From positions 62,001-126,000 of the forward strand of contig NZ_FOHI01000006.1 of the NCBI RefSeq assembly GCF_900111585.1: a DNA stretch of 64,000 bases. Reading direction: 5' to 3'. The first letter of the stretch is position 1. Every line of letters starts with the position of its first letter. The notes beneath the pieces are model-generated. The model had not been told where the DNA came from. It was given only the letters and a program-made list of their open reading frames with translations, and did no database searches. Made by a program: the position numbers and the translations under genes. Positions 55,752 through 59,733 of this stretch are shown piece after piece. The DNA is from Nitrosospira multiformis (GTDB taxonomy: Bacteria; Pseudomonadota; Gammaproteobacteria; Burkholderiales; Nitrosomonadaceae).

Positions 55752-55878
55752 AGCCCTGCTTTTATTCCTTGTTTCTATTCCTGCTGGGAAGCAAAGCTTG
55801 GGAAGTTTTTTTCTGAAGCGCGGCGCGATGCCAATCCATTTCCCGCTTTTAGGATTTATGCTCTACGCGTCAGCCTGA
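55717..55878 (+). CDS. Possible small ORF overlapping the end of the GH57 gene
   Basis: A 53-codon frame starts with ATG at 55717, 4 nt after a strong GGAGGAGGGG ribosome site, in another frame of the last 35 nt of the GH57 gene. It reads MKRVVQCGVLPKALLLFLVS at the N-terminus, with a hydrophobic segment (ALLLFLVSIPAG) that resembles a short membrane anchor. The arrangement is what one expects of a translationally coupled next gene, but the product is unknown and may be the remnant of a lost gene (for example a glucan-modifying enzyme). Confidence 0.35.
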   Translation: MKRVVQCGVLPKALLLFLVSIPAGKQSLGSFFLKRGAMPIHFPLLGFMLYASA

Positions 55879-56071
55879 GCAATACTCAAATCTTCTCACT
55901 CAGAGAGAGAAAGGGCTATCCGGGCAGAAAAAGGCGTTGCCGGAGTCTGCGCCGCTCATAAAATGCGCCTTACCTTCCTCTTCTATATGCTCGGTTTATC
56001 GTCAGGTTCCTATGAGCAAAAGTCAGGGTTTGCAGGGGATCCTGCAGTGGCCTTAAATAACTCCGCAGACT

Positions 56072-56485
56072 TCAGCAATGCTCGGTTTTTGTCGGAGGGG
56101 CGCAGAATGTATCTTCCGCGAGCTGTATTGCCATTCCTCGATATGATTCGGCTTCTCTGATATGGGCCTTTGCGGCATTGTCATATTTGCGTGCCAAGGC
56201 ATGAGCATGCCCTTGTAGATCTTGAGCTTGCCTTCCGTAGAGATAGCTTTTGGCCTTGTACTGCTCAAGCAGCCGTTTTTGCTCCTGCGCTTTGGTTTGC
56301 ATTTCCTTTGCTGCATCCTCGTGGTTCCTTGCTCTGGCCTCATAATCATTCAGGGTTACAACACTATGAACCTTCTTGGCATCCGAATCCTCCGTCACCT
56401 CTGCAAATGAAACCGCTGTCGTCAGCAAGGCGGCCGCCATAGCAAAAATATATGAAATAGCAACGAGCTTTCCTTTTTTCATCAC
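56072..56485 (-). CDS. Secreted coiled-coil protein of unknown function
   Basis: A 137-residue protein with a classical signal peptide (two Met, KKGK, a hydrophobic stretch, cleavage after VSFA near residue 28). The mature part is a long charged helix rich in Ala, Glu, Lys, Gln and Tyr (about 50-125), with the pattern EARARNHEDAAKEMQ, suggesting a coiled coil. The end has two cysteines (FCAPP...EHC). The ATG (two adjacent) has AGAGGGGA upstream. It resembles small periplasmic helical-bundle proteins but I cannot name a family. The convergent neighbour is the GH57 gene and the gene on the other side diverges. Confidence 0.75.
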   Translation of the reverse strand: MMKKGKLVAISYIFAMAAALLTTAVSFAEVTEDSDAKKVHSVVTLNDYEARARNHEDAAKEMQTKAQEQKRLLEQYKAKSYLYGRQAQDLQGHAHALARKYDNAAKAHIREAESYRGMAIQLAEDTFCAPPTKTEHC

Positions 56486-57102
56486 TGTTCCCCTCTCGGC
56501 AGTTAGTCAATTGTGATTTTTTTGTGATGTTTTTGTTATTTTAAAGTGAAGACATCTTTTCGCCCATCAAGTTCCTCCAAGTAATTTTTTCTCAATGGGG
56601 GAATTCGAGGTCTGTTGTTGTCCTGTTTGGAGTGATGACAACAGGGGACAGGGAGAGCCAGAAAGATAGCCTGACGATTAAAAATCCACAAAGGAACTGT
56701 ATAGCCAAAACAAAATAACCTTTCATAAGTCATTCACAAAGCCATCTCCGCGTTTCCGCCACTACCTTCTCCTGCTCAGCAATCGTCCACTGCAGGAGCA
56801 GACGCTAGTCAGTAACACACCCTTCCTTTTCCTTCTCCACACCCGGTATTGAGATAACACCGACGCTAGGATTATTTTTTCTCCAATTTATCCCACTTTT
56901 AACACTTTTTTATGGATTTTATTGCATATCCCCCCCACTTTTTTTATTAATTTATACATTTTTCACTTTTTTTTCACATTTTATCAACTTATACTTCACA
57001 TGAACTTAACAATTTCTTAACAAATGTTAAGTTCATGGACCAAATGCTGAAGGACGAATTCAACATCACTCGATTACTTAAGAGAAAGGGAAGGGGAATA
57101 GA
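56486..57102 (+). promoter_or_regulatory. Long AT-rich divergent regulatory region
   Basis: This 617-bp gap has no convincing gene; a 65-codon frame at 56536-56733 has no recognisable product. From about 56860 it becomes very AT-rich, with four CACTTTT-type tracts (56894, 56903, 56936, 56964). A 12-bp inverted repeat at 56999-57037 lies about 65 bp before the start of the next gene, so this is very likely a promoter and operator region for it. Confidence 0.6.
56999..57037. other. Perfect 12-bp inverted repeat upstream of the OMP-like gene
   Basis: CATGAACTTAAC (56999-57010) and GTTAAGTTCATG (57026-57037) are exact 12-bp inverted arms, with a 15-nt spacer that holds another CTTAACAA. CTTAACAA thus occurs twice directly (57005 and 57016) and once inverted. 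No terminator tail follows. Most simply a regulator-binding cluster. Confidence 0.8.
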
Positions 57103-58224
57103 ATGTCAGCAAAATTCAAGTCAAACGAAGGATGGAGGAAAAGCTCAACAAGGGAAGTAAAGAGTAAGTGCCTGGGTCTGCTTCTGCTTCTTGGAGGAAG
57201 TTGCACCTCATCCGCAGCACTTTTAGAAACCGATGCTGAACTGAAGAAGAAGCTGGAAATCTTGGAAGCGAGAATTGCGGAGCTGGAAGAACGGCTGGAA
57301 AGGACAGGGGGGCAAAAAGAAGACGCCAGCCCCAATTTCACTCTGGAAAAAAAAGACATCGGGATGGCAGCAGCTACGGGTTCATCTAACCCGGCAGCTC
57401 CAGCACATGGCGAAATTGGAGATAAGCTACCTGTCGTAAAGACCAAGGTTGCGGATGTAAAGCCCTTTCTGGATGAAAACGGCTGGCAGGAGGGCGGGAG
57501 CAAGGGCCACGGCTTTGACCGCAAGAAATTCCACGGGGGCGTGACTTTGAAGCAGGATGCGTTCTTTGGTTTTCAGACCATCCTTGATGCGGGTTATGAG
57601 ATCACCGACAACATCGATTTCACTTTCTACAGTTGGCTGTGGACGAGTCCCAACTTTGGCCGCAGCCGGGTAGTTGCAGGGCCGGATGGCATGCAGGTCG
57701 ATGCGGGTGGCAACGGGTTGTGGACGGAAGTCGGCATGGGGTTGAACTTCCGATTTTTCGACGATGCGCTGAGCATCAATCCCCAGATCGGCGTTCTCAA
57801 CGGCGCTCTGCTATCCAGCCGGATCGTCGGCCGGGGTATCCGGGCGGCCGAAGGTGTGGTGCCCAACATCACCATCAACTACGACGACGATTACTTCACC
57901 GGTCAGGGATACTTTGCCTACTACGCGGCCATTCGCGATGAACGGGCGCGGGACTTCATCCATAATTGGGTGAGCCTTGGGGTCAAGCCAGCGCTGTTCA
58001 ATCTCAAGAATTTTCCCGTCAACTCCGTTGGAGTTCATTGGGAGCACCTGCGGTTTCACGTCGATCGCATCGACGGAGCTCCTGGAACGCTCTACAACTG
58101 GATAGGACCCTATGTCGAGCTTGCGCTGCCCATGCATCTTGCCTTGCGCTTTGCTGCCGGAGCTGATCTGAAAGGAGAGGTGGCTAATGAGTTTTACCAG
58201 GCCAGTATAAAAATGCATTTCTAG
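57103..58224 (+). CDS. Outer-membrane-like protein with N-terminal coiled coil, unknown function
   Basis: A 373-residue protein: a basic n-region and hydrophobic segment (LGLLLLLGGSC, about residues 24-34; LGGSC is a weak lipobox), then a short coiled coil (ELKKKLEILEARIAELEERL, about 46-65), a Pro/Ala linker and a beta-rich domain (about 150-373) ending in aromatic-alternating strands and a terminal Phe (KMHF). The terminal Phe and repeated Y/F strands suggest an outer-membrane beta-barrel, and the coiled coil could trimerise it or touch the cell wall. I cannot name a family. GGGGA lies 5 nt before the ATG. The preceding gap carries the 12-bp inverted repeat. Confidence 0.75.
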   Translation: MSAKFKSNEGWRKSSTREVKSKCLGLLLLLGGSCTSSAALLETDAELKKKLEILEARIAELEERLERTGGQKEDASPNFTLEKKDIGMAAATGSSNPAAPAHGEIGDKLPVVKTKVADVKPFLDENGWQEGGSKGHGFDRKKFHGGVTLKQDAFFGFQTILDAGYEITDNIDFTFYSWLWTSPNFGRSRVVAGPDGMQVDAGGNGLWTEVGMGLNFRFFDDALSINPQIGVLNGALLSSRIVGRGIRAAEGVVPNITINYDDDYFTGQGYFAYYAAIRDERARDFIHNWVSLGVKPALFNLKNFPVNSVGVHWEHLRFHVDRIDGAPGTLYNWIGPYVELALPMHLALRFAAGADLKGEVANEFYQASIKMHF

Positions 58225-58425
58225 TATGTTGGAGGTATGCGATGCATGATCCGATGCAATCAGGACGATTGGACCTGGGGTAAGGAAAGTTGCTGGGCAT
58301 TACAGTTTTCTCAAGACGCAGCAGGCACCTGAAACGGATGGAATTTCAGATGTACAGAGAGTCAGTCCCGTCCGGAGCCGAAGGCGGGACTGGCCTGCAA
58401 TCAGGCCATTGTCTGGAGTGGAAAC
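58225..58425. other. Gap between two unknown genes
   Basis: I see no gene, strong hairpin or T-tract terminator in these 201 bases. A GGAG site near its end serves the next gene. Confidence 0.4.
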
Positions 58426-59211
58426 ATGGTCGTTTATTCCATAAATGTACAGGGAGTTCACTTGGCAGGTAAAACTCCACCATCAATACCCAAATCGATA
58501 GATCATATGACGAGCGCGGAGCTGCGAGCAGTAATAGTAGAACTGCGTCCTCCGGCAGTCAGTGAACTAGTAGAATGTGACCATGAGGTGTTGGCCGCTC
58601 GTCATGCGCGGAATGCTTTGCTGGCAAGATTGCGTCAGGTTCGATTAAGGCGCGCGAGAATGGAGCGCCAGTTGTGTCGATGGCGATCAGCGCACCCATT
58701 ACAAGCCCATCTTCATGAACTTGGGCTTATGTCGTTCCGGTTTCTGGAGAGATGGAAGGTAATCAAGGAAACTATCGAAAGAGTAGCGCAAAAGCTCGCT
58801 GAAAAAGCTGATCAGGTGCAGGAGCATGCGAGAAATGTGGAGAGAGCCGTAGAGGTGAGGATTATTATGGAGCAAGCTCCTCTCAGGCAGTATATATCGG
58901 ATCTCGAACGTCTGGAACGGCAGAAAATCATGCAGGAACTGGTCGAACGATGGCAGACTCATGAGTTTGATAACGCCCTGACAGTTTTCAAGATGCTTGC
59001 ACTCAAACGTGAAATGAAAGCTTTTGGTTATGACGATAGCGGCGTTCACTGGCAGGCACTGCCAGAATCATTCCGCAAAATCATTGACAATTTCAACTGC
59101 TTACCCCGAGGGGCGAGATCTGTAGCTTTGGAGCGGATGAGATCAACGGCCCAACTCGATGGAAAAGATGCACGAAGGCTCATGCGCGAGATGGGACTGA
59201 GTTGGGACTAG
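58426..59211 (+). CDS. Alpha-helical protein resembling a helical region of plasmid relaxases
   Basis: A 261-residue, almost wholly helical, strongly charged protein (Arg, Glu and Leu rich) without signal or membrane segments. The pattern TSAELRAVIVELRPPAVSE, then RWRSAHPLQAHLHELGLM (about residues 85-102) and a coiled coil from about 105 to 150 resemble, from memory, the helical C-terminal portion of conjugative relaxases (TraI/MobA relatives of plasmids and integrative elements). The relaxase catalytic Tyr and His domain is absent, so it would be a fragment or a free-standing relative. GGAG 7 nt before the ATG at 58426 supports translation. Its neighbours are unrelated genes. Confidence 0.55.
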   Translation: MVVYSINVQGVHLAGKTPPSIPKSIDHMTSAELRAVIVELRPPAVSELVECDHEVLAARHARNALLARLRQVRLRRARMERQLCRWRSAHPLQAHLHELGLMSFRFLERWKVIKETIERVAQKLAEKADQVQEHARNVERAVEVRIIMEQAPLRQYISDLERLERQKIMQELVERWQTHEFDNALTVFKMLALKREMKAFGYDDSGVHWQALPESFRKIIDNFNCLPRGARSVALERMRSTAQLDGKDARRLMREMGLSWD

Positions 59212-59733
59212 CTTGTGCATAGATGCTGACCGTTGCTTCATCCGTAGTAGCCGCGATGTCATCTGACAGTTATCCGATTTGAGAGGTGCGATATATCGAA
59301 TCAAATCTGAACTTCTACAACTTATACCTGCATAAGCTACAACTTCAACCGTCCCGTTCTGAAGTCAAGCACATTGAGCATAGAACCCTTCCTTCCCTGG
59401 CGAGCTTTTTTCGCGACTACTGACCGGTAGCAATTTGCCATGATGGCGATACTCTTACGTTGGACGCCACCGCATCGCGTTCGAATATCGAGCAAGTACT
59501 TTATCGTGTACCCGTAGCCACTTGGACAAAAGTGCGCTCCGACATATTCGCGCTCATCCGCTTGGTCGAATTGCAGACTCTCCCGAGTCCGGCACAGTTC
59601 AGTGACAGGGCAGGGTGCGCCACAGGTCTTAAACCCATGATTGCAGTATGGTTCGGGGTCTTGGGGTTATAGTGGTGTTCATAAAATTTCTGGTAAAATT
59701 GCGGATTCTCCAAGAGCTCAGCAAGGATCTGTC
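59212..59733 (+). other. Gap before the ferredoxin gene
   Basis: In these 522 bases I see no reliable gene, tRNA or terminator. A likely promoter element ATAAAAT near 59682 and AAGGA 7 nt before the fdxA start serve the ferredoxin gene. Confidence 0.4.

Follow-up and report, generated by a model that had tools for sequence, protein, structure and literature searches.

What lies between the genes for the GH57 protein and the ferredoxin fdxA in Nitrosospira multiformis, and do the genes found there belong together? Here, we investigated a 64,000-nucleotide stretch, referred to as the window (RefSeq assembly GCF_900111585.1, contig NZ_FOHI01000006.1, positions 62,001 to 126,000 of the forward strand; part of contig C12 of a 3.2 Mb genome). 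The original prediction, made from the letters of the window, had placed three unrecognised genes between housekeeping genes and singled out this region as the likeliest to hold an undescribed module. Three open reading frames (ORFs), here called A, B and C, are indeed found there, and the flanking genes are of housekeeping type, namely glgC, the GH57 protein gene, fdxA and a gene for a TIGR03623 DNA-repair protein. A, B and C are genes rather than chance ORFs, because they are conserved elsewhere and B and C are under purifying selection. They occupy an accessory island in which A and B are each preceded by a phased array of TTCACA-type repeats. We judge this array, common to the island and to ammonia-oxidation genes, to be the main clue. 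Our best reading, held with slightly better than even confidence, is an envelope module that has spread horizontally and is coregulated by an OmpR/PhoB-type response regulator. The features are as follows, in window coordinates.

55806-59508, no strand: accessory island, delimited by blastn against the empty sites of G008 and G007 and by site occupancy across 23 genomes
56072-56485, minus strand: gene A, 136-137 aa, with a signal peptide, helical/coiled-coil character and Cys-x8-Cys at the C-terminus; unnamed multi-copy family
56512-56550, minus strand: phased array 5' of A, TTCACT-ATAACA-ATCACA-ATCACA in 11-bp steps, first unit 68 bp before the ATG
56847-59572, no strand: B+C segment missing in G004 (taken as N. 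multiformis ATCC 25196), 2726 bp, flanks colinear
56951-57022, plus strand: phased TTCACA-N5 array 5' of B, strongest stretch 56973-57022
56999-57037, no strand: perfect 13-bp inverted repeat CATGAACTTAACA...TGTTAAGTTCATG, overlapping the B array and present in the window copy only
57103-58224, plus strand: gene B, 373 aa, DUF6733, with a signal peptide, a coiled coil (residues 41-68), a linker and a 12-strand barrel (residues 143-373)
58426-59211, plus strand: gene C, 261 aa, free-standing C-terminal half of a MobQ relaxase, relaxase-homologous part 58498-59202

As had been proposed, the region is an accessory island specific to this lineage, which some close relatives carry and others lack. 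In the window, the GH57-fdxA interval harbours A, B and C over 3.7 kb. Across the 23 genomes it holds nothing, A alone, or A, B and C, depending on the strain. GH57 adjoins fdxA with nothing recognisable in between in G005, G007, G008, G014 and G019. At the empty site of G008, blastn places the counterparts of 55805 and 59509 about 6 bp apart, and G007 is alike. In G004, A is present and B+C are absent, and the sides of the gap at 56847-59572 are colinear at 90-95% identity. The history of this gap, like that of the empty site in G005, was read from the junctions. The right end of the G004 gap includes about 65 bp of ancestral flank, which G007 and G008 retain, so that a deletion in G004 seems likelier than a second insertion event in the genome of the window. 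G005 retains about 100 bp from the left edge of the island and lacks about 40 bp of the right flank, and its empty site also looks like the result of a deletion. No direct or inverted repeats of at least 9 bp join the two B+C junctions, and no transposon ends were seen there. The long AT-rich gaps that had been described are restricted to one: between A and B (about 56486-57102) the GC content falls to 0.39 against about 0.55 nearby, whereas the gap 3' of C is at about 0.48.

Next, we asked which of the genes move together. C lies directly downstream of B in 10/10 B copies, from nine Nitrosospira-type genomes, and the pair occupies at least four chromosomal sites. Seven genomes, the window's included, carry it beside hisG, mostly in the interval from hisG to lpd/2-oxoglutarate dehydrogenase; eleven further genomes have hisG and lpd side by side or almost so. 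The region downstream of the hisG-site pair is rearranged in G004, and G001 and G019 (Nitrosovibrio Nv17) have the pair at other sites. The B tree and the C tree both place the window copy with Nv17 (support 96/94 and 100/100), rather than with the other copy of the window's own genome. DNA similarity between the window and Nv17 runs from 56989 to 59212, which covers the array, B and C. The tree positions would be explained by horizontal transfer or by an ancient duplication followed by many losses. B and C have been inherited and relocated together, and both this pairing and the existence of the island are solid. A was not adjacent at the other B sites inspected. The observations of the original prediction are thus confirmed and its interpretation is partly supported: the undescribed module is supported for B+C, adjacent at several unrelated sites, and A is not a fixed neighbour of the pair, though A has its operator type in common with B. 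In G001 (L065:8441-10349), an array-bearing A-family gene lies between a resolvase gene and a C fragment; the order there is C-A against A-B-C in the window, as expected from circular permutation.

A and B each have an array. The A array scores 19/24, a value that none of 1000 dinucleotide shuffles reached, and only a period of 11 gave this result. The B array scores 20/24, equalled by 1 of 1000 shuffles. When up to 3 mismatches are allowed, the array pattern has three matches in the window, all upstream of B, against 0.02 expected. Control ORFs of the window score at most 16 apart from one at 20, presumably B itself. All ten Nitrosospira-type B copies are preceded by cTTCACA repeats in one orientation and in 11-bp register, with up to 8 consecutive units, and about a dozen units in all in G020. 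The closest A orthologues are likewise preceded by arrays, with scores of 18-23. We also tried CRP/FNR-type palindromes as a description of the array and rejected them, as the repeats upstream of B are unidirectional and no 11-bp pairs occur on the reverse strand.

Family-wide, the array pattern has 545 matches versus 17 for a reversed-pattern control, overlapping triplets within one array being counted more than once in real and control searches alike. By genus, the counts are 142 versus 5 in the window's genus (23 genomes), 391 versus 8 in that of N. europaea (85 genomes), 12 versus 2 in a third, and 0 versus 2 in a fourth with small genomes. Arrays are rare, at 0-15 matches per genome. Exact TTCACA pairs show spacing peaks at 11, 22 and 33 bp, with AT-rich spacers. 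Array sites are intergenic, with 4/59 inside ORFs compared to 64% of random positions, and a gene start in the same direction follows within 450 bp at 27/59 sites compared to 16% of random positions. The shared array is solid as a sequence feature, and we infer a regulatory role for it. The literature searched, which was incomplete in coverage, yielded no report of such an array in ammonia oxidisers. In one further genome (G056:C15:34261-35225, L278), two long arrays are separated by about 860 bp, and neither is shortly followed by a gene start in the same direction; they may represent a duplicated promoter or mark a small RNA gene.

Which other genes stand behind arrays? Targets were identified through pattern matches, and the list is incomplete. 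An array precedes a divergent orphan amoC (AmoC equivalog) in G000, G005, G007 and G017. It lies about 300 bp upstream of the gene, or 210 bp in G017 (G000:C13:155707-156540; L196, L233; also L234, L235, L238). No array was found upstream of other amoC copies, among those with upstream DNA read. No amoA was found beside the divergent amoC in the flank read, using a simple peptide string that matched amoA nowhere. The nitrosocyanin gene (TIGR03096) has an array about 185 bp upstream (G000:C15:4835-4873, L194), and further array-preceded genes encode BBP2 porins, SulP transporters and A-family proteins. In the second genus, which includes N. europaea, arrays precede DabB-DabA, a RoxA-like cytochrome c and an FMN oxidoreductase. 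Small His-rich secreted proteins without a Pfam match also follow arrays in several genomes (L195, L198, L210, L217, L232).

The geometry of the array recalls a known operator class. PhoB-type response regulators bind 11-nt direct repeats head-to-tail, and the most conserved core of the PHO box is CTGTCAT in Escherichia coli and GTTCACC in Streptomyces coelicolor (PMC4415409). Like the PHO boxes of PhoB and PhoP, the arrays consist of tandem head-to-tail direct repeats of 11 nt whose conserved core spans about 7 nt, here cTTCACA next to the GTTCACC of S. coelicolor. Unlike them, the arrays reach 8 consecutive units and have no phosphate gene among the inspected targets. No phosphate (pst/pho) gene was recognised at the 59 inspected array sites, in a search that was not exhaustive, and phosphate as the signal is not supported by these targets. 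By analogy, the array fits the PhoB-type operator class in geometry and partly in sequence, and because of this match we suggest an OmpR/PhoB-family regulator.

We then characterized the three proteins. The two envelope-linked coiled-coil proteins of the original prediction are A and B, both by sequence and B also by its model. A has a signal peptide, as judged by eye, and the Cys-x8-Cys of its C-terminus is common to its closest orthologues except that of G020. Homologues of A occur in 95/120 Nitrosomonadaceae genomes, a single genome carrying as many as 24 copies; of 398 genomes sampled across the phylum, only 2, both Nitrosomonadaceae, have any. The family of exported helical proteins to which A belongs is large and lineage-specific. 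Neither A nor C has a significant family in Pfam, NCBIfam or PHROGs. The eight small genomes of genus g4 (G025, G028, G031, G034, G037, G040, G043, G046) have no array, and those covered by the A search (all but possibly one) have no A-family gene. Plasmids of the methanotrophs Methylomonas and Methylobacter encode lipoprotein-like A relatives with an HPMDM motif (L283-L287). These adjoin CusA/CzcA-type heavy-metal RND efflux genes in 5/5 plasmid records, and merT/merP are also nearby in 2 of the 5, both copies being from one strain. In the window's genome, a weak A-like fragment lies 3' of a CusA gene. Because of these two associations with efflux genes, a metal-linked role of the ancestral A form is plausible; for the A of the window, such a role is only a lead. 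Kinship of A with SmbP, a small metal-binding protein with histidine-rich repeats, is a speculative idea.

Profile searches place B in Pfam PF20507 (DUF6733) with an E value of 2.8e-55 and 187.9 bits against a cut-off of 27. This family has no assigned function, and we found no mention of it in the literature searched. B covers profile residues 27-243 of 243 positions and additionally has the signal peptide, coiled coil and linker ahead of the barrel. The AlphaFold2 model of this 373-residue protein shows a coiled coil (41-68), a disordered linker of low confidence and twelve long strands (143-373). Fold searches return outer-membrane channels, including GalP/KdgM, COG4313 and FapF, whose 12-strand barrel is also present in residues 141-373 of B, at 9-13% identity and with no common operon context seen. 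The coiled-coil part weakly resembles designed trimeric coils (E 0.07). Sequence searches of solved structures gave no match for A, B or C, only weak hits (E 0.07-1), most of which are coiled coils. Distant relatives with the same barrel were found in one Cytophagales and one Kapaibacterium record. The dN/dS of B is 0.05-0.18. Going by the model, B is predicted to be an outer-membrane channel.

The relaxase-like helical protein that had been suspected is C. Its residues 25-259 align with residues 317-551 of a 566-aa MobA/MobL relaxase at 38% identity (E 4e-47), within the C-terminal helical region of this MOBQ family. MobQ-type relaxases such as those of N. multiformis plasmid 3 (NC_007617) and of small plasmids are homologous to C in their C-terminal half. 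C differs from them in its chromosomal location, its pairing with B, and the absence of PF03389, the N-terminal nuclease with the HxH metal-binding motif. PF03389 gave no match in C at E values up to 10, and a full-length relative of C does match it. C is predicted to be all-helical, and a fold search returned only generic helical proteins (best E 0.13). In trees, the free-standing C copies fall into one clade separate from the relaxases, consistent with one capture event. The relaxase origin of the supposed fragment thus stands, whereas its status changes: with a full-length dN/dS of 0.08 between the window and Nv17, the C of the window is a conserved free-standing gene of this lineage and not decaying debris. 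At the hisG site, C copies have lost the last 60 or so residues, their dN/dS is 0.24-0.69, and one copy has a stop.

From these data we infer the functions of A, B and C as parts of the following scheme. A response regulator of the OmpR/PhoB family would use the array as its operator, its monomers binding head-to-tail on the 11-bp repeats. On a signal, this regulator would induce outer-membrane and periplasmic proteins, the orphan AmoC, nitrosocyanin, porins and carbon-uptake genes. B would be an outer-membrane channel, which its coiled coil probably holds together as a trimer. A would be a periplasmic helper, with its lipoprotein relatives beside CusA/CzcA pumps pointing to metal handling. 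C would have been captured once from a MobQ plasmid relaxase, would be cytoplasmic and without nicking activity and would travel with B; that it serves B by a binding or adaptor role is a guess. Several observations weigh against the scheme. The array targets are functionally diverse, and some A paralogues have no array. Some arrays also appear to lack a clear target, as only 27/59 have a nearby gene start. The A of the window has neither the HPMDM motif nor the lipobox of its metal-linked relatives, and the B model has a mean pLDDT of only 62.6. Finally, C may be dispensable at the hisG site, because its C-terminus is lost and it evolves faster there.

We considered other explanations for the same data. 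The genes could be unrelated accessory genes gathered at a permissive site, with the array as a common family promoter element and no joint function. The diversity of array-preceded genes, the separate gain or loss of A and B+C in some strains (A alone in G004) and the absence of A next to B elsewhere all speak for this. However, B and C are never apart in Nitrosospira-type genomes, an A relative adjoins a C fragment in G001, and although arrays number only 0-15 per genome, both A and B of one small island have one, and we consider this explanation doubtful. B+C could also be the fossil or decayed remnant of a mobilisable plasmid, with C as relaxase debris, B as cargo and both being lost; this would account for the MobQ ancestry of C, the truncated hisG-site copies with their one stop and the C fragment beside a resolvase gene in G001. 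We think it unlikely, given the low dN/dS of full-length C, the C downstream of every Nitrosospira-type B, the lack of any trace of the relaxase N-terminal 320 residues within the window, and searches of plasmid records and viral contigs in which DUF6733 was not found.

Additionally, B could be a FapF-like polypeptide exporter with a secreted protein such as A as its cargo. FapF entries are the top Foldseek matches of B (E about 3e-6), coiled coil, linker and 12-strand barrel follow one another in the model as they do in FapF, and A and B have one operator type in common. VIA-align, however, places GalP/KdgM-type oligosaccharide porins slightly above FapF (Z 17.4 and 16.5 versus 15.9). A common fold does not show function, and coiled coils preceding porin barrels are common. 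Furthermore, no fap genes were recognised near B at the inspected sites, which hold GH57/fdxA, hisGDC/lpd, 5'-nucleotidase and GGDEF/EAL genes. We therefore regard an exporter role as quite improbable.

We tentatively propose, with somewhat less than even confidence, that Nitrosomonadaceae ammonia oxidisers may have an undescribed global regulon marked by phased TTCACA-N5 arrays. This regulon would couple orphan AmoC, nitrosocyanin, porins, inorganic-carbon uptake and the metal-linked periplasmic coiled coils of nitrifiers and methanotrophs, and the island would be a horizontally spread piece of it that includes a domesticated relaxase tail. Three unnamed protein groups, the A family, DUF6733 and the free-standing relaxase tails, gain a testable context. 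A family-wide operator, if true, would provide a handle on what ammonia oxidisers sense and how they respond.

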